This document shows positions 2,891 to 64,000 of a DNA stretch of 64,000 nt, piece after piece. Within the stretch, counting starts at the first letter, position 1. Every line of letters starts with the position of its first letter. Position numbers and translations under genes: made by a program. This stretch comes from Brachionus manjavacas (lineage: Eukaryota; Rotifera; Eurotatoria; Ploima; Brachionidae), in contig JAHQIY010000010.1 of NCBI GenBank assembly GCA_019054805.1, forward strand, positions 2,959,501-3,023,500, given 5' to 3'. The notes beneath the pieces were generated by a model. That model worked only from the letters and a program-made list of their open reading frames with translations, made no database searches and was not told the origin of the DNA.

Positions 2891-3453
2891 TCAATAATTT
2901 TGATTCAAAACAACAGCAATGAATTCTTTTTTATTTATTCTGTTGTCTCTGTCTTTGTCAACAGCCTGAAGCATTTTCTGTACATCTGATTTTGTGATGT
3001 TTCCTTTGAAACGTGCCATTACTATCAGCAACTCTTCTTCGCTTATGTATCCGCTTTTATCTAAATTAAAATTTAAAAAAATAATGAAAATGTTAAATAA
3101 AATTTTAGTTAAAAAAACCTTGATCGAAAGTGTCAAAAGCTGCTTCGAGCTCAGCGGGTGTTGGCTCGCGAAAAAACTGATCTGCCATCACTTTCACAAA
3201 TTCGTTGAAATCAACGCTTCCACTTCCATCTTTGTCCATTAATCCCATAAGCTCATTTACTTGTCTATCTCCCACTTTGATTCCAAGCGATTCGCACACT
3301 TTTTTCAATTCCTTGACACAAATCGAGCCTGAATCATCACCATCAAATAAACTGAAGCAATTTTTAAGTTCTTTGAGTTGGGTTTGATTTAGCCTCTGAA
3401 AATCAAACTTAAAATTGTGTCATTAGACCAGTTGTTACACTTACTTGACTCAT
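2891..3453 (-). CDS. Four-EF-hand Ca2+-binding protein (troponin C/calmodulin-like), copy 1
   Basis: Three exons: 3445-3453 (Met-Ser-Gln only), 3119-3395 and 2891-3060, with introns of 49 and 58 bp (donors GTAAGT and GTTTTT, both acceptors AG). They join in frame to a protein of about 151 aa. Four EF-hand loops are visible in order: DGDDSGSICVKE, DKDGSGSVDFNE, DQDKSGYISEEE and DKDRDNRINKKE. Each has the position-1 Asp and position-12 Glu; the fourth has Asn where Gly is usual at position 6. The third loop is split by the second intron, so the gene reads properly only when spliced. Length and the FREPTPAELEAAFD linker suit the troponin C/calmodulin superfamily, acting as a cytosolic Ca2+ sensor, possibly on muscle thin filaments. 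A paralogue with the same exon plan lies at 9926-10477. Confidence 0.9.
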
Positions 3454-13257: not shown

Positions 13258-13655
13258 TTATTATTAGTTTTAGTAGTAGTAGTATAATCTTCAGCTTAGA
13301 GGTTATCTAAGCATAGCTCTAAAGGGCTGTAGCCCTTTTTTTTCGCCATCCAACTATCAAGCTTCGCTTTAAAACTATTTAGGCTCTTTGCATTTACTAC
13401 ATCTTCCGGGAGCTTATTTCATTCATTTTAGACTCTATTTGTAAAATAGTCAAATCTCGGAAAACAGTTCTTTATTTTTTCACGAGTAAGACAATAGCTA
13501 TTTCTCCTCAACTCATATCTCCGGCCACCAGGTTTCTTGTTAAGACTGTATTGATTCCTTTATTAAATTCAATTTGTTCATAATTGTTTACCGATTTGAA
13601 CATCTGGATTAGATCACCTCTTAATCTTCTTGTTTTCAAGTTACTTAAATCTAAC
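13258..13655 (-). pseudogene. CR1-like LINE 3' terminus
   Basis: Minus-strand frames give TRRLRGDLIQMFKSVNNYEQ, then RRYELRRNSYCLTREK, then LPEDVVNAKSLNSFKAKLDS and a stop. This order (R-GDLIQ-FK, conserved basic block, W/N-LPe.vv.a.slnsFK..LD) marks the C-terminal end of CR1/L2-type RT proteins. A TAC/TAA-type microsatellite tail (13265-13290) follows. Frameshifts make it a dead 5'-truncated copy. Its opposite-strand neighbour, the plus-strand LINE, starts at its 5' edge. Confidence 0.75.
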
Positions 13656-15342
13656 CTTAACAAACAAATTCAAAAGCGAGAATTGGGATACATTTCTTAA
13701 GTCTCTTGGGCCTAATCCAAACTCTTCCCGTCCTTTTTGGAAAAAAGTTAATTCGTTTAAAAAAAACTCCTCCGGCAATGTTATCCCCAAACTGGTCCTC
13801 AATTCAAAAGAGTTTAACACAGATTCCGAAAAAGGTACACTTTTTAAAGAGATTATTGGGGAAACCTTTACTCAAGAAAGAAATGATTCCTTCGACAATG
13901 ACTTTCGAGACATGGTCGAAGTTTTTGTATCAAATAAGGATTATCTGAAAGGCAATCATTATTTGAATGCCGAAAAGTCTTTTCCTAAAATCACAATTGA
14001 AGAGCTAAAAAAAAGCATTAGAAAACTAAAAGACGAGTCAGCCCCTGGACCTGACAACTTATGTAACCGTATGTTGAAAAATCTCCCTGACCCGTTCATA
14101 ATCGGTCTAGAGAGTTTTTTCAACCTCTGTCTAGCTACATCCGAAATCCCAGATGCTTGGAAAACATCTAAAATAACAATGATCCCCAAAAAAAAAGTTA
14201 GTTCTGACCCGTCTAAATACCGCCCAATTAGTGTCACTAGCTGTCTTGGAAAAGTTCTTGAAAAGATTATTACAAGTAGGCTTTACAATTTCCTTGAAAA
14301 CAAGAGTCTTATCTGCAAGGAACAGTCTGGCTTTAGGCAGCATCGACGTACCTCCGACAATTTGGTGTTTTTAACTCAAAAGGTCTCTGAAACTTTAGTT
14401 AGAAAGAAAAAAGTATGTTCCCTCTTCTTCGACATCTCTAAGGCGTTTGACAAGGTATGGCACAGTGGATTAATCTACAAACTTACCAAAATTGGGGCCC
14501 CTCTCTACATTCTGGAGTGGGTGGTTAACTTTTTAAAAAATCGAAGTTTTTTTGTGAAAGTAAATAACTTTGTCTCGGATTCAGGTTCCATAGTTACTGG
14601 AGTTCCCCAGGGTGCAGTTATTAGTCCTTTACTCTTTACTATTTTTATTAATGATATCCCCAAGCAGGACCAAAAAAAACACTCATATTCCTTGTTATTT
14701 GCCGATGACCTGGTGACCTTTTTTGTTTTTAAAAAGTATGGGAACATTACTAACATTATAAATAACTATCTTAAAAAATTGCAGCTGTGGCTACAAAAAT
14801 GAAGGCTAAAGATGTCCCCAGAAAAATGTAGCTAAATTCTTTAACTTGGTAATCCGTCAAAAAACATTAAGCTAAGTCTAAAACTATTTGGAAAACAAAT
14901 ACCCTACACTGACTCCCCAGTCTTCCTTGGAATAAAATTTGACCAAAGTCTTTGTTTCAACTCCCATGTTGAACTCATTCGTTCTAGATGTCATGATCGC
15001 GTAAATTTAATAAAAATTTTGTCACACAGATCGTAGAAGTTAAATAAAACTTTTATTTAACTTCTACGAACTTCTACGGTTTTGAAAACCTTAATTGGAG
15101 TCTATAATGCACTTATAGGTTCCATTATAGACTATAGTTTTTTCATCTTATCCCGTGTCTCCCAGACAAACATTCAAAAACTGGAAGTAATTCAAAATAC
15201 ATGTTTTAAATCAATCTATCACTTACCTAATGACACACCTTCTATCCAACTTTCTGGCCTTCTCAAGGACCAAAAGGTTGATAGAATTGAGTCTAGACTC
15301 AGAATTCTGCTCGAAAAATACATAAAAAAGTTTAATATGTGA
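13630..15342 (+). pseudogene. LINE reverse transcriptase (RT plus C-terminal domain), disrupted
   Basis: An open frame of 390 codons (to 14802) contains the whole RT core in order: ESAPGPDNLCNRML, WKTSKITMIPKKK with YRPISV, QSGFRQHRRTSDNL, LFFDISKAFDKVWH (first catalytic Asp), GVPQGAVISPLLFTIFINDI and LLFADDLVTFF (catalytic Asp pair). It ends at a TGA where the family has a Trp codon (LWLQK, then RLKMSPEKC in the same frame), so a nonsense mutation separates fingers/palm from the thumb region. A palindrome at 15031-15069 then breaks the frame, and the C-terminal part continues at 15082-15342 (VYNALIGSIIDYSFF). Family resemblance is to jockey/CR1-group RTs. The start Met at 13630 is not the true start. 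Confidence 0.88.
15031..15078. repeat. Perfect 19-bp palindrome with 1-nt loop plus a third partial copy
   Basis: TCGTAGAAGTTAAATAAAA is followed by one C and then its exact reverse complement (15051-15069). ACTTCTACG (15070-15078) repeats the end once more. It interrupts the LINE RT coding frame. Confidence 0.95.
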
Positions 15343-21750: not shown

Positions 21751-21810
21751 CTAAAGATAACATTTCGAGCTAAGCCCCAATTTACAATTAAAAAAAAATT
21801 TCCAACTTAC

Positions 21811-22320
21811 AACCACATTTCCTCCACCAGGCACATAATTTGCTTTGTCAAGACTGTTAATTTTTGATTTGACATTTTTGAGCTCTACCTTTTGACTAAA
21901 TATTTTAACATTGCTAGCTCTAGGCCTGTGCTTGACAACATAGCGGACCTTTTTGTCCGATTTGTCGCTGAACATGCTCAGATTTTCGGTGCTAGGCTGG
22001 GTGCTAAGCGACCTTGTTTTGTTGAGCAAAGAGGACGAATTGGACAGAGAGACCGCTCTTGTTTGCGCGCTATTTACTCGGTCTACGCGGCTGTTCCGAT
22101 TGTTGTGAGTCTCTTGGCTCGACCCTGTTCGAGAAGAGTGTGCCGATGAATCTTGATTTTTTTTCACTTGTTGCTGTTTCAAAAGAACGCCAAAGCGCGG
22201 TATCTTTGACATTTGTCTACTTTCCTTTAGGCCAGTCGAGTTCAGCTGACTGATCAAGTCGAATATCTTGTTGGCCTCGCTCACAGGCTCAGCATTGCTG
22301 TCTTCGCTCAGCTCGCTCAT
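21811..22320 (-). CDS. Tau/MAP2-family microtubule-binding protein, 5' exon (N-terminus and repeat 1)
   Basis: Starts MSELSEDSNAEP at 22320. It encodes an acidic start, then a basic, Ser/Thr/Gln-rich projection-type region (SRTGSSQETHNNRNS, then RSLSTQPSTENLS), a basic segment (KKVRYVVKHRPRASNVK), and the first tau repeat KSKINSLDKANYVPGGGNVV, directly before a GTAAGT donor at 21805-21810. The exon is exactly 170 codons, phase 0. Repeats 2-4 and the C-terminus are at 10800-11292 on the same strand. Together they form a small four-repeat tau/MAP-like protein that would decorate microtubules. G+C is visibly higher here than in the surroundings, as expected for a constrained exon. Additional exons inside the gap cannot be excluded. 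Confidence 0.88.
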
Positions 22321-48400: not shown

Positions 48401-50105
48401 AAAACTTTGTCTTCTTCTTTTAAAATTTTGACTTAAGTTACAATTTACTTTGGTTTGGTGCATTTTAGAAAATTTATTAAAAATGGAAAACAGAGAGTAG
48501 ATAGTTTTTTAAAATATAAATATTATTTTTAAGGATCGTCATATCACAAATCCCAAGTCAAATTTTTTAACAAAAAAACTAAGTTTTTCATGCTTAACCT
48601 GGAATAATTAAACTTCATTTATTTTTTAATTTCTATCTTAAAGTTTACAAATGAAGATTTTAGAAGAGTCAATTAAAGATCTTTTTTAATAAAAATAAAG
48701 ATTTGTTTATTAAAAAAATTTTATCTTTAAACAAAAAACCAACAAAGTTTTTTTAAAATACATCGATAATATAATTATGAATATGAACTTCAAGATACTT
48801 TAAAAAATACTTAAATTCGCTAAAAAGTAAAATTTTAAAAATGAAAATGCTTGAAATATTCACTTGAAATTGGTTTGGTGCATTTTTTGTGTTTGAATTT
48901 TGTAATTCAAACAAAAAAAATTAAAAAGATTAAAAAGAATTCGTAAGATAATTTTCTAAGATTCTTTAAGATTATGCAAGATTTCACATGAATATTTTCT
49001 GACTCAGGTAAGATTGGATCAATGCGTCTCTTGATTAAATTTTTTTCAACAAACTAAAAAAATCACTTTTGTTTAATTAATAGAAAATATTTTCTGTTTA
49101 AATAAATTTTTTCATGAAAAACTAATAAAGTTTAATTTAGGATTTAAATCATGATGCATTGATTTTCCAACACTCTCTGTAAATGTCGAGTACTTGTTGG
49201 TGATAAAAAGAGCTAAAATCCAGAACATTTTCAGTCAAATAATTATTTCAAATATTTGTTTTTGTTAATATCTTTTCTATAATCTCTCTTGATTTCACAT
49301 TCGAGCATATGTTCCTATCATAAACAAAAAAACTTTTTTCTTTAATTTCTTTAATGAATTTTTTTTGAAAAAAAAGACTTTAAAATTAAAAAATAATAGC
49401 TCAATCAGACAACATTTAAAAATTTGGCTTTTTAATTAAATAGCTTTTTTAGAAAAATCCACTAATAATCCTTCATTAGAAAAAAACACAAATAAGAATT
49501 TCTTTATTTTGAAGCTAAAGCTTATTCTAAATAAAATTTTGAAAAATAACAATAAAAGAACTAAATGCTTATTTTTATTTGTTTTGGATAAATGAGAATA
49601 TTGATCCAAATGGCTTTAAAAAAACATATTTTTTTAGTTGTTACTTAAAGAGCCAGAACCAGCCAGAGTATTCAATTATTATTTGATAGAGTTCTTTTTA
49701 AATTAAGCTTTTGTTTAGAATAATTAAATTTAAAGCTAAACTATGAATTAGCGCAGTGCGCTTAAAAATAATTTTAGCATTTATAGCATTAAAAATTGAA
49801 GTTTTTATAAGGAATTAAAAATTTTGGGAAAAAATAGCGATAAATTTTAAATTTAGTATTCATTAACAGTATTTAGGTTTATAAATGATTCCAAGCATTT
49901 AAACCATATTACAATCGATCCTCGATATAAGGAGGGCATTGTGAATTTTCTTTCAAAAATTCCAATACAAAAATAAAATATCAAGCTAATGAGTAAATTT
50001 TTGTTTTTTTTGAAAAATACAAATTTAATCTGGTGAAACATTATTTGTTTCATCATTCTTCAAAATTTTAAATATTGAAGTTGATTATTGATTTGATTTT
50101 TGATA
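48401..50105. other. AT-rich stretch
   Basis: No gene recognised. A phrase GGTTTGGTGCATTTT occurs twice (near 48452 and 48871), about 420 bp apart, perhaps the ends of an unclassified repeat. Confidence 0.45.
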
Positions 50106-50109
50106 AAAT

Positions 50110-50230
50110 TGATATTATTTTGGAAGTTAAGTTAATGTTTAGTTATAATTGCTATAAAAAAAAAATATTTTATTATTTTATTGCAGATTAATATAAACTA
50201 GCATTAACTTGACTACCAAAATAAATTTAA
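50110..50230. repeat. Short inverted repeat, possible mini-MITE
   Basis: ATTATTTTGGAAGTTAAGTT at the left pairs with the reverse complement of the right end, ATTTATTTTGGTAGTCAAGT, around a 65-bp AT core. Confidence 0.55.
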
Positions 50231-50877
50231 AGAGACTATTGATAGTTTTTTATTGAATTATTAAAGAATAATAAACAGAACATATATTTAATTGTCTTAG
50301 ATTATTTTTTTCAGCTTTTCTGGTTCGATTTGTAAAAGAATAAAGGAGACTTATAAACCTGAATATCAGTAATATTGAAATTTCAATTTCACTAATCTTA
50401 ATATCAATTAGTAAATTTAACTTTTTCGATATTCAAATTCAATATATGCATAATTTGAATATTAAAATAAAAATTAAACAATTGAGTATTTATTTGAATG
50501 CATCACTTAAAACAGGAAAGTCATGTACGTACGAAGAAATTCAAGTTTTCTTTTGAGTCCATATGCAACTTTTAAATAATCATTTTGATTCTTATTGATG
50601 ATTTTAAATTATCTAAAGACTGAGCAACGCAAATGTCAACAAGATATAACATTTTTACAATTTCACGTCAAAATTTGAAAAAAGAATTTAATAAGCTTCA
50701 ATTTTTAAGCAACTAAAATATTGAAGAAGCTATTCACGTAAATGAAATTTTTTAATAAAATTACTCCAAATAATAGTTAAAAAACGCGCGTTTTTAATCA
50801 ATAAATTAATTCACAAATTGACTTTCAATTATCAATTTGATATTGAAATTAAATCCGACTTATGATACCTTATGAAA

Positions 50878-51155
50878 GAGTTCAGATCCTTAGGGTATGG
50901 CCAACATGAGAGTACGGGGGTACTTAAATTATTACATGGGGTTCGCGGGGAAAGTCACTCCAATAGTGAACCTTTTCCTAAAAATGACCATGCTTACCTG
51001 AGAATATTGGTGGCATATGAATCTGTTCCTTAGTATGGACAGACTCAAATTTAAGAAATTCCCCAGGAATAAGGAAGTCAGGTTCGCGGTCGCCTATGTG
51101 CGTGGCCAACCACCAACAATCCGGAAGACGCGCCTTCAAGGCACATATCACCATC
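50878..51155. other. Structured GC-richer island of unknown nature
   Basis: About 275 bp with markedly higher G+C than the flanks and several short hairpins (AGTACCCCCGTACT and TCACTATTGGAGTGA on the minus strand). GGTTCGCGG and TGGCCAAC each occur twice. On the minus strand an open frame of roughly 50 codons (LKARLPDCWWLATHIGDREP, then DFLIPGEFLKFESV) runs into a strong 5' splice-like site, CTCAG/GTAAGC, near 51000. It could be an exon, a non-coding RNA or a SINE; none is proven. It lies about 600 bp downstream of the 51.7-63.2 kb gene cassette. Confidence 0.4.
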
Positions 51156-51714
51156 AATAAATTTAATTTTTCCTTAAAAGTTAATTAAATGAATTTTAAA
51201 AAAATTAATAAAAAAATATTTATTTAAATATAAAAATTTTTATTTTTGTGAAAATTCAAACAAATTTACAATAAATGTATCTTTTTATTGTTGGTGAAAT
51301 AACTTTGAACTTTTTCACCTGTGAATGAATTCGTATGGTAGAATGATTGATAATTCTATAAAAAGCTACAAAATCCAAAATTTTAGTAATTCGAACGAAA
51401 ACGACGTTGATGTCCTGAAAATGAATCCTTTTCAAATTTTGTGCGGCTGTTAAATTTTGAACATAAAGTTTTTTTTGAAACCTTTGAGGTTTTTTAGATC
51501 ATTATTTGATAATTCCTTATAACAAATTTACATCGCACTACTCAATGAAATGAAATCAGATCCAAGAATCAAAATCATTTTATAAAAACATGAATTTTGT
51601 TGCATTTTAAAAAAAATCAAGCTTCTCTTTTAACAAATTCATTCAAAGGTGATCTTATTTAAAGTTTTCTCACTAAAAATAAAAACAAAACTAAAGAAAT
51701 GAATAGAAAAAAAA

Positions 51715-54700
51715 TTAATTTTTAAACGATTTTTCAGAAAACCATTTCTTGAACTTAACACAGTGATCGGCTCTATCAGTCACATAGACTTTATTAAACG
51801 ATTTCGGATGTCGGTAGAAAAGTCCTTTTCTAGGGCCTTCAAAGACCTTTTGACCAAAATGGGCACCGTGAATATTATATCGCCCAACATGTGGCCCATC
51901 ACCATTAAATGAATTATTTGAAACATTCTTTTTAAAGATTTTGATTACAAAAAATTATAAAAATAAATAAATTTCAGACCTGTTTAATTCTTGATGACTT
52001 CTTACTTTTTCATCCGATTCCGAGTCACTGGTTGAAGTAAGACTTTCAAGTTTTCGTTTTGAAAACTTTGAATATATTTTAGAGTCAGCAAACGCTACTC
52101 TTTTCTTAAAAGTAACTAATTTATTAAATTTAAAAATAAAATAAAAGCTAAAACCTTGCTGGTCTTTGGAGCACAAACAGGATTTACATCTGATTCATAA
52201 TAATCTGACATTATTGAATCATTTCCAATTTTTGATTCTGTATCATTGTCAGATTCGTCCGAATTACTGGTATATATGTTTGCTTGAGCTCTCATTTTGA
52301 CAGATGATTGTTGTGTATCTAAATTGAATTAAAAATTATTTAATTATTTGCTTTTAAAAATTTACTAGATGATTTTACCTTTCTCCTCGATCATTTGGTT
52401 AACTAGCTTAGTGTATTCTGCAATTCTATTTTCTAAGTCAACAATTTTTTTATCTTTTGATTCATTGATTTTCCGTAAATTTTCTGAATTCTTGGGATTA
52501 AGGGGACAGTTTGCACCACTTTAAATGATAATTTTTTCTCTCAATAAAATAAAAATTTATAATTTATCTTACGAAAAATGCTTTTTTCTTCCAACAATTG
52601 AGTTCCCAATCCCGCCGCAAATTTTATATGGACACAAAATACTATTATCAAGTTGAAGTATTTTTATACCGTTTGAATGAATGTTCTCAGGAATATTAAA
52701 ACTTTTTTTTAACTCAAGTAGTTCTCTTTTTAAAATCGAAATTTCTTGTCTTAATAAAAAAAATTAAGATACTAAAATATATTTATTTGATATTTTACGT
52801 TTCTTTTTCATCTTTATTTATTCTAAAGTTAAATCTTTTTGCCTCTTCTGATAACTTTAAATATTTTTGACTAAGCGACAAGCTAAAAATTAGAAGTTTT
52901 TAAGATATTTAACAAACTACAGGAAAAATTTATTACTTCTTTTCATTTAATCTACCAATTTCGATGTTAAAATCATTTTTATTACGCTTGTTTTCAAATT
53001 TTAAGTCGTCTTTGATTAAAAGCAATTTTTGCTTTTCTTTTGAGATTTGAGATAAATCCTGAGACTTTTCGACGGAAATTTCTTTTGATTTTATTTCTTT
53101 CAAAGCAAGTAATTTTGTCTGAATCTCATCAAACTCGATTTTCAATTGATTGAATGTAGCTTCCCTTCAAAAAATATTTAAAAAAAAAAATTATTTAGAA
53201 TTTTAGATAGTTACTTTTCTTTTCTCAATATATCAGAATTTTCTGTATCTGTGTAGAGAGAATTGATTTTTTCTTCGAGTTTAAATATCTCTTCGTTTTT
53301 AAAAGCCAATTCAAAATTTCTAAAATAAGAATTTAACTAACATAAGGATATAAAAATATATTTTAAAATTTACTTGTCAGTTTCATTTTGAATTTTGAAA
53401 TTTGACAGTAATCTCTTGTTGTCTTCTAGAGTACTTTCTATGCTCTGACATTTTGTTTCTAATGCATCATAGTCATTTTTCAATTGATTGAATGTAGCTT
53501 CACTTCAAAAAATATTTAAAAAAAAAATTATTTAGAATTTTAGAAAGTTACTTTTCTTTTCTCAATATATCAGAATTTTCTATATCTGTGTAGAGAGAAT
53601 TGATTTTTTCTTCGAGTTTAAATATCTCTTCGTTTTTAAAAGCCAATTCAAAATTTCTAAAATAAGAATTTAACTAACATAAGGATATAAAAATATATTT
53701 TAAAATTTACTTGTCAGTTTCATTTTGAATTTTGATATTTGACAGTAATCTCTTGTTGTCTTCTACAGTACTTTCTATGCTCTGACATTTTGTTTCTAAT
53801 GCATCATAGTCATTTTTCAATTGATTGAATGTAGCTTCACTTCAAAAAATATTTAAAAAAAAAATTATTTAGAATTTTAGAAAGTTACTTTTCTTTTCTC
53901 AATATATCAGAATTTTCTATTTCTGTGTAGAGAGAATTGATTTTTTCTTCGAGTTTAAATATCTCTTCGTTTTTAAAAGCCAATTCAAAATTTCTAAAAT
54001 AAGAATTTAACTAACATAAGGATATAAAAATATATTTTAAAATTTACTTGTCAGTTTTTAATGTTCTTTCTTCATCAAAATTTTTTTCGTTTTCATATTT
54101 ATTTAAATTTTCAATTTTGTTTTCCATTTCGATTATCATGTCTTTTGAGTTTCTGATTTCATCGAATTTTCTAATACAAATTATAATAGAATGATTATTA
54201 AATTTTACAAATCTGATATTTACTCGTTAAGTTCCATGTTAATTCGCAATATTTCTTTCTCAAGACGATCAATTTCATCTTTGTAATTTTTGATTGTGGA
54301 TTGATGGTATTCTTTCTCAATTTCGGTCTTTTGATTTGCAGTCCTTTCCGATTCATGAAGTTTTGTTTTTAATTTTGTATTTTCTATCTCATATTCAATT
54401 AGCCGATCGATTTCCTTTTTTTTAAATTTTTTAGAAATTTTTTATTAAAATGTTTAAAATTATTACTTTCTTCCATAAAGGACAATTTTCTAACGTAAAA
54501 TGATTCAGATGATTCGTCCCATTCTTGTTAACATTACCGTAGTTTTTGCATTTTTTATACTGGCAAGTCCTTTTTCTGTTTTCCACTTTTAATTTCAAGT
54601 TTTCCATTGTCAATTTTTCAATTTGACATTCGAAGTCTTTAAATCTATCATTTAGACTTAAGTTTTCAGCGGTAATTTTTTCCCTTAAAATAAATATTTT

Positions 54701-55584
54701 GAAAGGCAATATAATTGATGTTTTTTATACTTTTGACTAAGTCGATCCTGTAATTCTTTTATTTTGAGATTCAACTTTTCTTCACCTATTTCATTAAATC
54801 TGATCAGTTCTTCAAAATATTTTACTCTTTTGTCACAGGACAGCTTAATAAAAATATTTTTTAAATGATTATTATTAATAAAAAAATCAAGAAATACTTT
54901 GAGGGCTTCAAATTCTTCTGAACGTAGTAAAATTGACTTCTGATGATCATCCTTCATGTCTTCAATCTTATCGTTTAAAGAAATGCATTCTTCTTCTTTA
55001 ACTTCTAATGCGTAAAGAAGCTCCTCTATTTTTGCTCGCAATCTAGGATCTTCAATTGGGCGAATTTCGTTTTCATCTATTTCTTCGAATTCAAGTGAAC
55101 GATTTAAGGGAGTAGAAGAACGTGGATGATTGCCCTTTTTTAGATAATATTATATTATTTTTAAGTAAATTTTAATTTGGAATAAGCTATAATTTAAAAA
55201 TTAAAAAAAAAAACAAATTACATCTTCATTAATGTCAACCACATGTTCCATTATGTTTTTAACTGATGAAACTAAGGTATTAGTGACATTTTGAACAGTT
55301 TCAAATGACTTATTCTAAAATAAAAAAAATTATTGTTTTTTTAATTGCGATTTTTAAATTTTAAATACCAATGCCTTTTGCATAAATGAATTCTTCGGAC
55401 TGTTTTGATACTTCGCTATTGCTTTAGAAGCACCATTTAATTGAAAAATATTGTTATTTGCCACTCCTCTTATTTTGTTTGAAGTTGAAATAACAAATGC
55501 TTTAATGTTTTTTGAATTCTTTAATTCATCAAGGAAATTAAAAGAATCAGTCTCTGTGAAACAACGCTTATTTTCAGCAGCCAT
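51715..55584 (-). CDS. Cassette gene A: multi-exon coiled-coil protein with two MYT1-like C2HC zinc fingers
   Basis: About 19 exons with introns of 45-75 bp, roughly 950 aa by my join. Start Met at 55584 (exon 1 55369-55584, then 55222-55314, 54898-55134, 54731-54843, 54467-54683 and so on). Most of the protein is Glu/Lys/Leu-rich coiled coil (AKIEELLYALEVKEEECISL). Finger 1 (about 54490-54600) reads CQYKKCKNYGNVNKN, then H and ENCPL; finger 2 (split by an intron near 52570) reads CPYKICGGIGNSIVGRKKHF, then CPL. Both follow the C-x4-C...H...CPL layout of MYT1-type C2HC fingers. Three tandem copies of an exon pair lie at 53165-54060. The last exon (51715-51935) has GPRKGLFYR followed by KVYV, resembling a short basic adaptor motif seen in large viral and transposon proteins. 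No host family recognised. Exon borders in the middle are approximate. Confidence 0.72.
53165..54060 (-). repeat. Tandem duplication of a two-exon/two-intron unit (about 338 bp)
   Basis: Units begin at 53165, 53503 and 53840 (periods 338 and 337). Each holds one exon reading NFELAFKNEEIFKLEEKINS and one reading EATFNQLKNDYDALETKCQS, plus both introns, and they are nearly identical even in the introns. The duplication preserves splice phase, so the coiled coil is lengthened in frame. High intron identity means it is recent. Confidence 0.88.
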
Positions 55585-56171
55585 CTCAGTATTGCTTGAG
55601 TTTTTAATTAGTAATTTAGATATCTAAAGTAAATTAAAAAGAAATATATAATTTAAAAATTAATTAATTCAAAAAGTAAAATAATTCATTAACTTTTGTT
55701 CAAATGGTCAAAAATTTGCCCTGCAGATCAAACAGAATTTAATAAACGTTGTTTATTTTTTAAAAAATAAAAATTTTTAATTTTTCCTTGATTTTTCTAG
55801 AAATTAATCTAAAAAAGAAATTTGAACAAGTGATAATAAAATTAATAATTTTTAAATAAATTCTGAATTTAAACTTCAATTTTTGTAAAAAAAATGTCCT
55901 ATAGAATATTTTTATCAAAAATTGCTAAGGAGCTTTCATATTTGGCATCAGGAACAAACAATCGATCACTTTGCTGACCTCTTTATAAAATGAATCAATA
56001 TTGTAATTTGTAATTATTAATTTCAGATTTATCTATAGTAAGATTTTCAAAATTTTAATTACAAAGCTTCGCAAAAAGCTTTTTCTTTTTATAAATAAAA
56101 ATAAAAATATAATTTTATGATTTTTATTAAAGTTTTTAAACCAAAAACAAGAAAAAACAATAAATTAAACT

Positions 56172-59100
56172 TTATTTACAGAGAGGACATTTGAAATTAT
56201 TTAAATTGGAGAAATAATTTTCTAAACATTTAATATGATATTTATGGAAGCAACTATTTGATTTTAAAAAATTGAATTCCGTCAATTTAGAGCTACAAAA
56301 TGAACAAAAATTATTTTCGGAATATTTTCTAATTTTGCCATTGATTTTAAGCCGTAAAAACTCTAAAGAATCATTGTCATTTCTAAATATTAAATCGTTT
56401 TCTTCTATTAGTCGGCTTAAAATTTCGCAAACAAAAACACCACAATTCGAAGAATCAATTTGATATGAATGTTCCGGTAAAGCTAGTTTCCATTTTCGCT
56501 TTTTCAAAAATTGAAATTTTTTGCAAAAAAAACTTAAATTTAATTTTAGAAAATATTTTTAAATATCATTCTCAAAGTTTAATTACCACCATTCTTCAAA
56601 TAACTTTGATTGTTTATATGTTGTATTTCCATGTTTGTCTAATATTTTATAATTTTTTTTGGGATCAATTAAATAAAACTTATTTGCATTGAAATCAATA
56701 AACATTAGTATCCAATGATTTCCGTTTTCGTTTATGAATCCATAAGCAGCAGCACACTTTTCAAACTAATCAATAATTAAAAATAATTTTCAAATTAGTG
56801 CTTAATTTTAAAATTTTACTTTATATTCATTGGAAAACTTTTTCAAAACCATTATTAAACATAGAAGTAGCATGAAAAGAATTTATTAATGATATTTTTT
56901 TTAGATTCTTTTACCAGACAAAGTCCATATGTTTCTAAAACCTTTAAATCAAATTGAAAAAATTCAAATAGAAAAAATAAAATATTACGCTATCGTTTAA
57001 CCATCGATTTAATAAAAGATCTTTAACTTCAGAATATCTCAAATAAAATTCGTCGACTTTGTAGTAGAAAAGATTGTCGATATTTATTTTCTTTTCTTGT
57101 TTATCTAAATTATATCATTTAATAAATATTTTAAAATAATTAATGAAGTTGATTTACCTTCCATTGAGTTAACTTCTTTCGCCAAGCTTTTGATTGAAAA
57201 ATTTCCAATTGTATCTAATGCCGTATCTACTTTCAATATTTTCCGTTTAAAATCCTCAGAAAACGGATCGTTAAATTCGTTAAACAGCTCCTTTCTTAAG
57301 TCAGTTTTTTCTATAATAACTTTTTCGATTTCATCCTTGAATTTTTTATTTTCGTAAAAATCCAATCTAAAACTTCTTGTAAAGTATTGAGCATCTTTTT
57401 TATTATTTTCTCTCATGGCCCACATTTCTTTATCCTTTTCACTATATGAAAATTTTTCTTTAGATTCAAAAAATGCATTAAATTTATCCTCATACAATGT
57501 TTCGTAAAGATGAGAAAGATAGAAATAGTATGGGGTCGCCAATTCATTGCTATATAAAAGTCTTTGACCTCTAATTCGCTTATTTACTTTTAGAATGGAA
57601 TTTTTTAAAAATTTAAACCATGATTCAACATAGTTATTTGATAGACGATTTTTATCGGGTAAAACTTTATTTATCAATAGGCCAGACCATAAAGGAACAA
57701 GATGTAGTTTTTTTTTTATGATATTAAAAAGACTAGGAAAAAATAAATCATTTTTCTCAAATGAGTTTTCTGTTTCCATTTCTTGCGAATCTTGTAGAAG
57801 ATTATCAAAAAATGACGTAAATGGAGAATCTTTCGCAAAGTTCACAGATTTTTCAATTGATTGATATAAAAATAGTTTGCTTTCATTTAAATTTTCTTTA
57901 TTTTTTTCTTTTTGTTTTTTGTCAATTTCTGGAGATATTGTTTCACAAACGTTTTTGAACCAATCACTATTTCTATCGAGTAAAGCTGTATTTATTTTTA
58001 TCATGCTTTCGAAATATTGATTATCCTTATATCTACGTGAAAAAATATTTTTTATGCACATTAAATTAATGCAAAAGTCGTCTAAACATTTTGATGTTTG
58101 AAGAATTGAAAAAGAGAAAATGAAACTCTTTCTTAACAAAATTTTATTTTCTTTTGCATGTTTTAGCTCTAAATCAGTTGCATCGATTATATTTTTAGAA
58201 AATGTGTTGAGCAAAGATAGATAACCGTTTTACCTAGCTTTCTAAGATCAATAGTTTCTTTTTTTACTAAAATAGAGTGGCAAATAGTTAAATATTCTAA
58301 CATTTCCATTTGATTAAATGCAAACATGCATCCATGAAGATTTGCCCATGAAAAATCTGTGACCAAAATAGCTGGTTTTTTAAAAAAACTGTATCGCTTA
58401 GCCTCCAGGAGAATTTTCGATAATTTTAGTCCAATACTTACGTTGTCATTTTGACTGCTTACAAAGTCCCCTATAGAAACCATTTTGTGCCGTACAAAAT
58501 CGTGAGCAACTAAGCTATGTAATAAAATATTTTTTTGGCCACCATATTTAACCATAACGTTACCGGTCGAATCAAAAAACCAAACTGGATTCATACTTTC
58601 AATTATCGCCCACATTTTTACCTAACAAAATTTAGAAATTAAATACTCTTTGTTGGCAAAAATTTTTACTTGAATTTCAGAAAACATCACAAAACCTATC
58701 GGATTTGATTCAATATCGTGAATAAAACCTTGTGTCCCTTTTTTATAGTTACGAAGAAAGTAGTCAAAAAACAATTTAGTTGCATCAGAATCAATCCTCA
58801 TTTCGTTACTTAATTGAAATCGATGTTTGAAAAGGCTTTTTAATTTTCTTGCATTCTCATATGATATATTGGTCGTATCTTGTTCATCTAAAAAAATGAA
58901 TTAATTTGTTAAAGAAGATTTAAATTTGAAGAAAATTACTGAAAAAAGCTCTCTCAGATAAGAAGTTTTGAACTCCTTTTGCCGTAATTTCGCTTTGTAT
59001 TAAACTTCGTTTCTCCCCTTTTAACTGCAATTTAGGAATCGTAACATTTTCTGAGCAGTTTTTTCCATTCCAATCAAAACAAAAGGTAATTCCACAATTT

Positions 59101-59639
59101 GCTACAGGTTTTGTTTTAATAAATCCATCAAATTCGTTTTTACAAGTAATACATTTAATTCTTCCACGCCAATAAAAATGACCAGGGAGTAAGATTTTTG
59201 ATGTGGTAAAAGAATTATTGGTATTTAATTTAAAGCTACATTTAATTCCAACATTCTTGAGTTTCTTTGAAATCATTTGATTTGCTGAAGCCAAAAATCT
59301 CGGTCGTGTTGATTTTGAAATACACTGCTGCATATTACGCCACTCGACATTATTGAAATAAATTTGAATTTTATTGTCGGTTATCAAACCTGAGGCGTTT
59401 TGATGAGAGAAGGCTTTTGATAATACTTTCGTCCTGAAATGACCATCGTTTCTTTTCCATTTTGTATAAATATTCACAGGAGCTGTTTCACTAGTAGAAC
59501 CATAAATATCCGCAATTTTTTTAAAATGGCTTTCTCCTCGAAATCCTCCCTCAAGATCAGTTAGATTATGACTCATCATATAATCTGCTGTTACAAGTAC
59601 TAATTTCTCAGAATCATCGAAATTAACTGATTTTGGCAT
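56172..59639 (-). pseudogene. Cassette gene B: transposase-like protein fused to Ulp1/C48 protease and RING finger
   Basis: Exons: 58940-59639, 58670-58887, 57158-58621, 56989-57104, about 56830-56941, 56587-56765, 56172-56532. N-terminal part: Cys-rich block (IKCITCKNEF, NCGITFC). Exon 3: WFFDSTGNVMVKYGG, then PAILVTDFSWANLHGCM and later NNYVESWFKFLKN, which give D, D and E in the order of an RNase-H-fold DDE transposase. Then an Ulp1-type protease: LLLNRWLNDS, ENGNHWILMFIDF (His), FYLIDPK (Asp) and YQIDSSNCGVFVCEIL (Gln and Cys), followed by a RING-like C-terminus (CSFCSSKL, CFHKYHIKCL, CPLC). The frame breaks in exon 3 at an A5 run (58192-58196), where one base appears lost, and again near an A8 run at 56895-56902. 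So it is a pseudogene, unless these are sequencing errors or unrecognised splicing. Confidence 0.75.
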
Positions 59640-59897
59640 TTTTTAATATATTCGTCTCTAAGCGGGAACTCTAATTAAATAGAAGTAAAATAAAATTATA
59701 AAAGAAGCTTATTTATGAGCTTTTTGAAATAAATGTTCTCCATGAATAGGAAATTAGCTTAAAAGTGAACATTTTTATTAACAAAAAACAAATATGGTCA
59801 AATATATTATAAAAAATTTAAGGCTTTTTGAATAATTTATTTCAATAGGTTGGGTATAAACAAAATTTTTATTAAATTACTTTATTAAAATTTAATA

Positions 59898-60479
59898 TTA
59901 GTTTAAACAAATGCTTAATTTTAAAAAATTTATGTAAGAATTTTCGAAATCTGCTAGATAGTTTTCGACTATATTCTCCACAGAAATGCTTTCGCAATTA
60001 TGAGAAGACACTGCAATATTCGCCATTACATCACAAATATCGTTTATATCTTCTTCAATTTCTTTTATTTTTTTTTCATCCAATTGTTGATTGGAAAAAA
60101 TAAATGTTTGAATTATTGAGTTGCCTTGTTCAGAAAAGATAATTTCCTGAGTGTCAGATTCATAATGAAAGGCTGCTTTCAGTAAATTTCCAATATCGAT
60201 TGGCGATGGAAATGCGTCAAAATGAATTTTAATTTCATTTTCGTCAAACTGTCCTTGATAGTTATTTTTCCTGATATTCGACGAAATTGGATGCGTATGC
60301 CATGAAATTAGTTCATCGGATATAGGAAAAATTTGAATTGATTCCAGGAACAGTGTTTCTGGACTTCCGTTCTGAATATTGGTAATATTTCCGGTATCTT
60401 TTTCGAAAACACCACCCATTTCATAGGAAAAATGCATTGTTTGTGGATCATTAATTATATTAGATATATGGATGGACAT
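59898..60479 (-). CDS. Cassette gene C: JAMM/MPN-like metalloprotease-like protein
   Basis: Single exon, 193 aa, starting MSIHISNIIND at 60479. The residues of a JAMM zinc-metalloprotease are in order: Glu20 in YEMGGVFEKD, His61 and His63 in SWHTHP, Ser92 and Asp95 in FPSPIDIGNLL. The gap between HxH and SxxD is longer than the usual seven residues (about 28), so it is a divergent member. JAMM enzymes remove ubiquitin-like modifiers or cut proteins using Zn2+. The C-terminal third is acidic and Asn/Glu-rich. It lies 258 bp upstream of gene B, on the same strand; a partly duplicated sequence (TTAGATATATGGATGGA) surrounds the start codon. Function within the cassette is inferred. Confidence 0.6.
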   Translation of the reverse strand: MSIHISNIINDPQTMHFSYEMGGVFEKDTGNITNIQNGSPETLFLESIQIFPISDELISWHTHPISSNIRKNNYQGQFDENEIKIHFDAFPSPIDIGNLLKAAFHYESDTQEIIFSEQGNSIIQTFIFSNQQLDEKKIKEIEEDINDICDVMANIAVSSHNCESISVENIVENYLADFENSYINFLKLSICLN

Positions 60480-60559
60480 TTTTGGTTTGTTAGATATATG
60501 GATGGAAATTTCTAATTTTCTAAAAATAATGTAGAATAATTAAAAATTGAATATATTGA

Positions 60560-61235
60560 ATTCAAAAACAACAAAATTTATTTGAATTTTCCTGGATTTA
60601 AAAAAAATTGATTTATTATTTTATTAAATAAATACCTAAATGACTCTTTATCCAACAAAAAATAAATCAAAAAATTTTAAAAATCGAAGAATTTCAAATT
60701 TATTTTAACTCAATTAATAAATTTCAATTTTTATATCAATAATTTTACAATTTTAATCTGATAGTTCACAAATTAATAATCAAAATTCACTGAAAATCAA
60801 AATAAAGAAGCTTCAAAATTAGTCCGAAAGATTCAAAACATTATTTTTACATTACGAATTGAATAATTTTTAAAAGTATTTAATTTAGATGCGTAAAATT
60901 AATTTAAAAAACAAACTTGATTTTTTCAGAATTTAAAAAAAGTGATTTATTATTTTATTAAATAAATGCCTAAATGACTCTTTATCCAACAAAAAATAAA
61001 TCAAAAAATTTTAAAAATCGAAGAATTTCAAATTTATTTTAACTCAATTAATAAATTTCAATTTTTATATTTATAATTTTACAATTTTAATTCTATAATT
61101 CACAAAGGAAAAAACTATATTTACTGAAAATCAAAATAAAGAAGCTTCAAAATTAGTCCAACAAAACTAAATTCACTGAAAATCAAAATAAAAAAGCTTC
61201 AAAATTAGTCCAACAACAATTTGATCCCTTTACAT
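60560..61235. repeat. Tandem direct repeat upstream of gene C (period about 334 bp)
   Basis: CCTAAATGACTCTTTATCCA with over 100 bp of shared flank appears at 60635 and again at 60969. In addition, a 50-bp unit with AAGCTTCAAAATTAGTCC occurs three times (near 60808, 61140 and 61193). No coding. It separates genes C and D and may include their promoters. Confidence 0.8.
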
Positions 61236-61377
61236 ACATAAAAAATGAAATAATTGAGTCGTTTCAGTTGTTAAACCGAAATAATAAAGAAAAAAGGTAA
61301 ATAAATTAGAATGTTTTATTTCTTTTAAATTTTAAATCAATATTTTTAAATAAATGTTCGAAATTCGATTAAATAAA

Positions 61378-63207
61378 TTATTTCCTTTTCTTTTTTTTTG
61401 TTTTCGGTCCTTGATTATCTAGCGTGAAAATATCATTAGCAAGTTGATTTTCATCTTCATTCAAATTTTCTGCTAAAAAATCACACTCGGCATCGTCTTT
61501 GTTTGGATGTACTGAGTGTTCGATACGATCTGGAATCTTTTCACCTTTTGATTTAAAATAATCATTGATCATTGAGGGTGCGAAAATACGACTTAAAGTC
61601 TCCCATGACCTTAAAAAAGATTTAAATATTATGTCCTAAATAAAGCGTGTTTTACTCTTCATATTTCTCATCTTTTAAATTCCGCCATGCAAGCAAAAGT
61701 TCCATTTTTTTTGTTTCATCATTTATCTGATGATTTAGAATTTGATCAAACTTTAAATTAAAAAAAGGAAAATTGAATTTAAAATAAGGAATTTTAAAAA
61801 ATTATCTAAAATTACATAATATTCTATATTATGAATATCGTATTTGGTCTTATCCTTAAACTCTTCCTCCAAATGTTTAATTGCTTCAAAAGTTTCAATA
61901 GGAAAATAGGCTTCGATAGATTTGCCGTCTGGCTGACTGGATTTTCGGTCTGTTCGACCAGATTTGCCGTGTGGTTGACTAGATTTTCTGCCTGTTTGAC
62001 CAGATTTTCGGTCTGTTCGACCAGATTTTCGCTCTAATCGACCAGATTTGCCGTCAGTTTGACCAGATTTTCGGTCTGTTTGACCAGATTTTCCTTCTGG
62101 TTGACTATATTTTCTGCCTGGTTGACTAGATTTTCGGTCTGTTCGACCAGATTTGCCGTCTGTTCGACCAGATTTGCCGTCAGTTTGACCAGATTTGCCG
62201 TCAGTTTGACCAGATTTGCCGTCTTTTTGACCAGATTTGCCGTCTGTTTGACCAGATTTTCCGTCTGGTTGACTAGATTTGCCGTCTTTTTGACCAGATT
62301 TGCCGTCTGTTTGACCAGATTTTCCGTCTAGTTGACTAGATTTATTCTCTGGTTGACTAGATTTTTTCTCTGGTTGACTAGATTTTCCGTCTGGTTGACT
62401 AGATTTATTCTCTGGTTGACTAGATTTTTTCTCTGTTTGACTAGATTTGCCGTCTGGTTGACTAGATTTTCCGTCTGGTTGACTAGATTTTTTCTCTGGT
62501 TGACTAGATTTTTTCTCTGGTTGACTAGATTTGCCGTCTGGTTGACTAGATTTTCCGTCTGGTTGACTAGATTTTCCGTCTGGTTGACTAGATTTTCCGT
62601 CTGGTTGGCCAGATTTACCGTCTTGTAACTGCTTTGGTTTTTTCTGTGAGAGCGTCCCAAATAACTCATTTGAAAGCTTTGAAATGGTAATGGTTGAACA
62701 AGTTTTGTCTGGTTGACCAATTCTCGCATTTTTGTCAAATCGGATAAATTGTCATGTTGACCAGGTCTCTTGACTTTTGCATCATTTTTTAAGACTTGTG
62801 TTCCAGAATTTTGATGTTTGCTTGCGCTTGTATCATTTTTTCTCTCCATTAGCTCTTTCTTTTGCTCCAACATAGTATCAAAATAGTCAAAGACAAGATT
62901 CTTATAAAAAGTTTCAATTTTTGTTTCATCGTTTTCGATTTCGAATTGTTCAAATATGTAATCAAAAATGACGTTATCTGCAAAAGCTTCCTCGACAGAT
63001 TTAAAATTTGGAACAAGTTGTGATTCTTAATATTAGTATTGAAATACATTTAATGTCATTCATTTAAAATAAATTATTGTTCTTACCTTTTGATAAAATT
63101 TTAAATTCAGCGGTGGAATAAAGCGTTTTCTTAATGATTGAATACAAAACTTGGGCTCTCTTCAAACAGCTTTTTGATCGATTGTTATTCAAATCGCTTT
63201 TTGACTT
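61378..63207 (-). CDS. Cassette gene D: repeat-rich protein, 5' incomplete
   Basis: Visible exons: 63087-63207, 61816-63025, 61656-61750 and 61378-61609, with introns of 45-65 bp and phases that agree. The N-terminal part (RAQVLYSIIKKTLYSTAEFK, then NVIFDYIFEQFEIENDETKI) is followed by about 33 seven-residue repeats, then YFPIETFEAIKHLEEEFKDK, LLLAWRNLKDEKYEESWETL and a Lys-rich tail (KTKKKKRK), a possible nuclear signal. The downstream frame requires the repeats to be read as SSQPDGK-type units, open along the whole array. The upstream frame instead reads them as NLVNQTE and meets stops at 62328 and 62038. A one-base shift near the A5 run at about 62735-62739 would reconcile them. No domain recognised. 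The first exon(s) lie upstream, beyond or behind the LINE array at 63250. Confidence 0.55.
61935..62627 (-). repeat. Coding minisatellite, about 33 copies of 21 bp
   Basis: Units of the type GACTAGATTTTCCGTCTGGTT (plus strand, less one base per 20 shown) are stacked with no indels, so every frame keeps phase for 693 bp. Sequence variants (Asp/Glu, Gln/Lys/Thr changes) are interspersed, as in an expanding array inside an exon. It encodes a hydrophilic heptapeptide in the frame that stays open. Confidence 0.95.
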
Positions 63208-63249
63208 CTAAAATTATTCGAAATAAAAATAAATAAAAAATCAAAGACT

Positions 63250-64000
63250 TAAATCTATATATTTATTTCTTTTTTTTGCGTTAATAGCCTTGGATATTCC
63301 ATGGCAAAAAAGCTTTATTTTTTTAATTGTCTCATGAAAATTAGATTATCTATGAAAAACTCCTTCTTAATTTTCCTTATTTGGTTGTTCATAAATATGC
63401 CTTGGACATTCCAAGACATTATTTTGAAATACCTGTTGAGTGTTTGAACGCTTAATTTTTTGTAAAAATTTATATACCTAGATTCTGATATATTTATTTC
63501 TTTTTTTTGCGTTAATAGCCTTGGATATTCCATGGCAAAAAAGCTTTAAGTTTTTTAATTGTCTCATGATAATTAGATTATCTATGAAAAAATCCTTCTT
63601 AATTTTCCTTATTTGGTTGTTCATAAATATGCCTTGGACATTCAATGACATTATTTTGAAATACCTGTTGAGTGTTTGAACGCTTAATTTTTTGTAAAAA
63701 TTTATATACCTAGATTCTGATATATTTATTTCTTTTTTTTGCGTTAATAGCCTTGGATATTCCATGGCAAAAAGCTTTAAGTTTTTTAATTGTCTCATGA
63801 TAATTAGATTATCAATGAAAAAATCCTTCTTAATTTTCCTTATTTGGTTGTTCATAAATATGCCTTGGACATTCCATGACATTATTTTGAAATACCTGTT
63901 GAGTGTTTGAACGCTTAATTTTTTGTAAAAATTTATATACCTAGATTCTGATATATTTATTTCTTTTTTTTGCGTTAATAGCCTTGGATATTCCATGGCA
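63250..64000 (-). pseudogene. Tandem array of a LINE endonuclease N-terminus (about 231 bp unit)
   Basis: Units begin near 63252, 63481, 63713 and 63944 and run off the window edge. Each encodes YINFYKKLSVQTLNRYFKIM then SWNVQGIFMNNQIRKIKK. The S-W-N-V-Q-G-I block is the first motif of the APE-type endonuclease that starts many LINE ORF2 proteins. A 231-bp unit is 77 codons, so most junctions stay in frame. Only the start of the endonuclease is amplified; catalytic residues further on are absent. One copy has L-N-V-Q-G instead of W-N-V-Q-G. Confidence 0.8.

Follow-up and report, generated by a model that had tools for sequence, protein, structure and literature searches.

The genome of the rotifer Brachionus manjavacas holds what is very probably an autonomous-type, four-gene Mutator-like (MULE) DNA transposon of 22.5 kb, which carries multi-kilobase segments of host genes beside its right end. 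Part of one copy lies in the 64,000 nucleotides analysed here (contig JAHQIY010000010.1, positions 2,959,501 to 3,023,500 of the forward strand; termed the window). The whole unit has transposed, because at seven loci the left flanks diverge from precisely the terminal base outwards and two copies are bracketed by two different, exact 9-bp target duplications. A preliminary description of the window had proposed four adjacent minus-strand genes, spanning 51715..63207, as a DNA transposon of an undescribed class. Gene models and translations bear out the four genes, but the ends of the element lie outside that span and the unit is about twice as long. The class is not undescribed either, since the transposase looks MULE-type and Ulp1 fusions of such transposases are already on record (PMC2836005); the element belongs to a known transposon superfamily, in which its size and complexity are unusual. 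Its parts within the window are listed below by window position (loci are named by contig, the window's copy being C10).

49926..49934, no strand: left 9-bp target site duplication TATAAGGAG; the right copy lies beyond the window at C10:3031957-3031965
49935..64000, minus strand: in-window part of the 22,522-bp element by copy comparison, continuing to C10:3031956
49935..49978, plus strand: left terminal inverted repeat by copy comparison, beginning GGCATTGTGAATTTTC
52155..55584, minus strand: coiled-coil protein with two MYT1-like C2HC fingers, 852 aa, 17 modelled exons
53139..54057, minus strand: 337-bp tandem unit inside the coiled-coil gene, 2.7 copies, each adding a coiled-coil exon pair (78 aa)
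56172..59639, minus strand: transposase gene with N-terminal zinc-finger-like part, MULE-type DDE core, Ulp1 and RING-like finger
59639-58940, 58887-58670, 58621-57158, 57104-56989, 56941-56861, 56765-56587, 56532-56172, minus strand: transposase exons
59898..60479, minus strand: JAMM-like protein by motif (E, HTHP, PSPID), 193 aa, one exon
61378..63207, minus strand: repeat-protein gene with chromodomain-like C terminus; 5′ exon(s) and middle frame only partly resolved
63257..64000, no strand: 231-bp tandem array within the element, extending beyond the window end

Ends, target duplications and copies

Comparison of copies gave 22,522 bp for the whole element in C10, from window position 49935 to C10:3031956, with 8,456 bases lying beyond the window end. 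The right partner of the terminal repeat begins GGCAATGTGAAATTTC at C10:3031956 on the opposite strand (window-equivalent 72456), and the two termini, identical in 37 of 48 alignment columns, form imperfect inverted repeats. The duplication around them, TATAAGGAG, is exact at 9/9 bp. The C22 copy, 22,160 bp long, has its own exact 9/9-bp duplication, AAATTTTCT, different from that of C10; the copy alignment suggested in the preliminary description thus yielded both inverted repeats and target duplications. At the left, 7 of the 12 fetched loci start exactly at the equivalent of 49935 with unrelated flanks, and the remaining five comprise C24, which is eroded, and four that align internally only. 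The left-terminal motif, with up to three mismatches allowed, was found 153 times in forward and 147 times in reverse orientation; a reversed control had no match. Among the paired motif matches we selected four short elements bounded by these ends; their duplications measured 8, 9, 9 and 9 bp, three of them exact and one 9-bp pair at 8/9. The right-end motif, found in C11, occurs exactly at C10:3031956, C22:760853 and C24:37671, and twice in C11. A right terminus at window-equivalent 65632 had first been assumed and was dropped; this boundary is internal, because two groups of copies continue beyond it with different shared sequences, one common to C10, C22 and C24 and another to five C11/C14/C32 loci. 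A minus-strand segment of the window at 32508-32668 matches the right-terminal region at 72%, and is perhaps a related short non-autonomous element.

The gene set co-occurs elsewhere in the genome, in copy counts that are lower bounds. Six loci, termed family A (C10, C11, C14, C22, C24, C32), hold the transposase (6/6), the coiled-coil gene (6/6) and repeat-gene DNA (6/6), and five of the six hold the JAMM-like gene, of which C24 retains a 28-residue remnant. The genes are accordingly neither single-copy nor confined to one joint occurrence, and the earlier proposal of one mobile unit is upheld by the inverted termini, the exact 9-bp duplications in two copies, the joint presence of the genes at six loci and the unrelated left flanks. 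A second family, B, has a transposase ~40% identical to that of family A, and at 10/10 loci the JAMM-like gene is no more than about 2 kb away from it; no family-B locus appeared among the 108 listed matches of the coiled-coil gene. In window 53794-60825, C10 and C14 differ at 24 of 4,891 modelled coding columns (the first seven coiled-coil exons, the transposase and the JAMM-like gene) and at 33 of the other 2,141 (Fisher p 1.7e-5), with 8 and 27 indel columns respectively (p 1.5e-8).

These copies could in principle descend from a composite, in which unrelated genes or elements nested once in a transposase-only MULE that then spread by segmental duplication, but we consider this improbable. 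Four of the six family-A loci do lie 36-78 kb from a contig end, where duplications are common, copies are nested in C11, a second, partial copy occurs in C14, and the sequence past 65632 is common to C10, C22 and C24. Seven loci with different left flanks at the exact terminal base, together with different duplications bracketing the whole unit in two copies, are hard to reconcile with such a spread, and so are the proximity of the JAMM-like gene to the transposase at every family-B locus and the stronger conservation of coding over non-coding columns.

The transposase and its companion genes

The transposase looks MULE-type, with a DDE core and C-x2-H motif fused to Ulp1 and a RING-like finger. 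Its gene has seven exons separated by six GT..AG introns of 47-95 nt, and Ulp1 (Peptidase_C48) exceeds its Pfam cut-off of 20.7 bits with a score of 33.0, so that the transposase-Ulp1 gene with short introns is as first described. We take the Ulp1 catalytic H, D, Q and C to be those of NHW, LIDP and YQIDSSNCG. The RING of the preliminary description survives in part: eight residues that are presumably RING-type metal ligands are visible, but all RING profiles stayed below cut-off, the best being zf-rbx1 (E 7.6e-5, 23.3 vs 31 bits), and a relative in C9 reached 26.0 bits against 27.3.

A profile search returned 95 related proteins; 97 were fetched and 74 aligned. Several of these relatives are named Brachionus and some are titled MULE transposase domain-containing; one from B. 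plicatilis (P0004) is 97.7% identical over 213 residues. The DDE triad is nearly invariant in the alignment (D95 63/63, D167 70/71, E400 66/66), as is the C-x2-H motif between the second D and E (C214 71/72, H217 72/73). The Pfam MULE family PF10551 was matched by 14 of the 74 at E <= 0.1 (best 1.5e-5), and a single window transposase exon had no match to the MULE profile. An OTU domain occurs in 8 of the 74, instead of Ulp1 in some. Another B. plicatilis record (P0001) joins a dynein heavy chain to the transposase of the element, perhaps a further host-gene fusion or a gene-model artefact. We also observed a 22-nt leader, AGAGTTCCCGCTTAGAGACGAA, at window 59651-59672 with a splice-acceptor-like TTAG directly upstream; in family A this leader immediately precedes the start of the transposase, and in family B it stands ahead of the JAMM-like gene.

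Placement of the transposase in the Kyakuja-Dileera-Zisupton (KDZ) group is about as improbable as the composite origin. KDZ transposons likewise have a DDE transposase with Ulp1-like partners, and both the Ulp1 fusion and a DDE core with a zinc-binding motif are common to KDZ and MULE; the weak MULE scores of single members leave some room for this placement. MULE is nevertheless the family matched by most relatives, and KDZ was absent among the 25 families listed, of 27 in all, for the 74 proteins. The exact 9-bp duplications in C10 and C22 and the GG- termini also fit MULEs, whose target duplications measure 8-11 bp (PMC6446971), as do the terminal inverted repeats and the DDE core with C-x2-H.

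The 193-aa protein between the transposase and the repeat gene is a JAMM candidate at the level of its motifs, in which E, HxHP and SxxD are present. Among 200,000 shuffled versions, the pattern H.HP..S..D arose in 249 and a stricter form in 7, both patterns having been written after the protein was seen. Between the second H and the D lie 31 residues, above what we take to be the classical motif spacing. Relatives were sought in a protein database, where none of 85 candidates reached E <= 1, and in viral contigs, where 18 pattern matches gave no relative. A stretch of 736 bp (59848-60583) is 92-93% identical in DNA between families A and B, and the identity goes no further. The JAMM-like gene has moved as a module, because DNA identity of ~93% is found between families whose transposases are ~40% identical, and it passed between them by recombination or capture.

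The coiled-coil gene has 16 introns of 47-87 nt and encodes 852 aa without a stop, the end of its last exon being uncertain. Two MYT1-like fingers had been claimed for this protein; the open frame holds and the finger spacing is recognised by eye, but Pfam zf-C2HC remains below cut-off (E 0.021, 15.3 vs 32.3 bits). One exon of its 337-bp unit has eight matches in the C24 copy. At C27:231688-257447 there are three relatives of this gene and matches to the left region of the element, with no JAMM-like match listed for C27. The repeat protein, also as first described, contains a 21-bp tandem array of 33.7 copies (61917-62623), to which we add a chromodomain-like C terminus (E 2.9e-4, 21.1 bits against a cut-off of 25.1, hence below it).

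Hydra, lancelet and plants are known to have Mutator elements with Ulp1, and there is a proposed link between ubiquitin-type proteases and transposition (PMC2836005), and the VANC/KIU elements of Arabidopsis combine a MULE transposase, Ulp1 and anti-silencing (PMC13317346). The rotifer element shares with these the DDE type, inverted termini, 8-11 bp duplications and Ulp1, and with the VANC type the possession of accessory genes (PMC2836005, PMC13317346, PMC6446971). It differs in the place of Ulp1, which follows the DDE core and is itself followed by a terminal RING-like finger, in the extra JAMM-like, C2HC coiled-coil and chromodomain-like repeat genes, and in length: a survey of 4,268 arthropod genomes gives 1.4-10.0 kb for complete MULEs (PMC13359780), whereas the rotifer element measures 22.5 kb. 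Ginger1 resembles it in that its DDE transposase bears either OTU or Ulp1 at the C terminus, in some cases together with a PHD finger, but has an integrase-type DDE with a GPY/F motif and measures 2.6-7.1 kb (PMC2836005). Teratorn and Terminons are likewise large multi-gene mobile units (PMC6431247), whereas the rotifer element is neither a virus fusion nor a retroelement, and the part read showed no recognisable polymerase or capsid gene. Neither the four-gene set nor the cargo size was found in the literature searched, searches for JAB/MPN/JAMM with transposons returned no such element among the papers listed, and the searched passages of two papers on rotifer repeats make no mention of Mutator (PMC6555955, PMC8447722).

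Host-gene segments beside the right end

In C10, 6,308 bp separate 65632 from a right end of ~518 bp that the copies share, with 99.2% identity between those of C10 and C11; of this interval, stretches of 1.9 kb and 0.6 kb were read. At its start, a coiled coil is encoded that looks kinesin-like by a below-cut-off match (KIF21A-like, E 2.7e-4). This segment is 99-100% identical among C10, C22 and C24, 98% at C6:2022233 and 96-97% identical to C16:1049123-1050964, a locus unannotated here that is its likely source; part of the segment is an interspersed repeat. The cargo of C11, C14 and C32 encodes MAM domains instead (E 2.4e-94, four stretches) and is 90-92% identical to C9:1028010-1032816, likewise unannotated here and its likely source. 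The preliminary description could not show this cargo, a ~6-kb segment resembling host genes, kinesin-like in some copies and MAM-domain in others, that is bounded by one constant internal junction and by the right end common to the copies.

Host gene sequence between element ends and a source copy elsewhere in the genome mark a Pack-MULE, and both are found here; animal Pack-TIRs likewise move host gene DNA within their ends. Pack-MULEs are also non-autonomous, whereas the rotifer cargo of ~6 kb sits in a copy that has a transposase gene, though with a broken frame. A survey of 100 animal reference genomes reported no Pack-MULE while describing animal Pack-TIRs; Ssk-FB4 is termed a Drosophila Pack-MULE, and the median captured size is 224 bp (PMC8277862).

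One C11 copy lies inside MAM cargo, where the two target sides overlap by exactly 10 bp (query 3336-3345). The overlap suggests a self-insertion, although one junction comes from one copy of a nested array and the other from another. At C11:16656-45176, near the contig start, element copies stand in opposite orientation at the same MAM-cargo site, which may be true nesting or an assembly artefact.

Weighing the reading and a possible mechanism

Several results weigh against a four-gene, autonomous-type MULE with host-gene cargo. An unbroken transposase frame was seen in none of the six family-A copies: that of the window is broken once, in exon 3, where an A run lacks one base that the five other loci have, a different one-base homopolymer break is found in C11 and C24, and matches in C14, C22 and C32 fall in split frames. 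Recent decay and assembly error would both explain these breaks. PF10551 on the first member of the query alignment stays below cut-off (E 0.033, 15.1 vs 27.6 bits), and the predicted transposase structure, with a predicted local distance difference test score (pLDDT) of 43.5, was unusable. The C24 copy spans 25,219 bp with an eroded left end and without a simple duplication, and C14 and C32 are absent among the right-end motif matches. The JAMM-like protein has no JAMM match in Pfam, NCBIfam or PDB sequences, and Foldseek found no fold match with a model too poor for the purpose (pLDDT 36.8), so that of the original JAMM-like claim the E, HTHP and PSPID motifs stand but neither family nor fold; the A-B synonymous excess for its gene was not significant (p 0.074). 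The kinesin label is weak, and the kinesin-like cargo had no match in PDB. A multicopy, immobile host gene cluster, which the introns and the intact coiled-coil and JAMM-like genes might suggest, is rejected as scarcely credible given inverted termini, exact target duplications, hundreds of terminal-motif matches and variable flanks.

On the preferred reading as a MULE, the transposase would bind the terminal repeats and cut and paste with a 9-bp stagger, as the chemistry of the superfamily implies. The cargo would be copied in as DNA, introns included, most likely during the repair, by gap filling or template switching, of a break within the right end; such repair synthesis is suggested by cargo that is DNA in nature and sources that are distant. 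Alternation of two cargos at a single junction suggests that the break recurs, or that recombination replaces the cargo. Ulp1, the RING-like finger and the JAMM-like protein may target the SUMO or ubiquitin marks that repair or silencing proteins carry at the element, with the C2HC coiled-coil and chromodomain-like proteins tethering these enzymes to DNA and chromatin. Such roles are those of the respective families, which all parts except Ulp1 match weakly or at motif level.

More tentatively, and with somewhat greater doubt than belief, we picture a giant animal MULE lineage equipped with a full ubiquitin/SUMO set (Ulp1 or OTU, RING-like, JAMM-like) and chromatin tethers. Its families would trade the JAMM-like gene among themselves as an anti-silencing module, and multi-exon host segments would be loaded and unloaded at one fixed docking junction, making these elements rotifer gene shuttles. 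Three open questions, on the recruitment of SUMO/ubiquitin proteases by transposons, on host-gene capture and on the passage of accessory genes between families, would meet here in one tractable animal. Animal Pack-MULEs are nearly unknown in the literature searched and the captured pieces short. With two cargos at one junction and likely source genes in the same genome, the capture mechanism should be readable from sequence. The trading of the JAMM-like gene suggests that, for the element, the function of this gene counts for more than the element's own transposase lineage.

No Rfam families or tRNAs were found in the window. By eye, a 390-aa open frame at 13630-14802 (plus strand) reads like a non-LTR retrotransposon reverse transcriptase, and one at 21751-22320 (minus strand), with a tau/MAP-like stretch NVKSKINSLDKANYVPGGGNV, is probably a host microtubule-binding gene.

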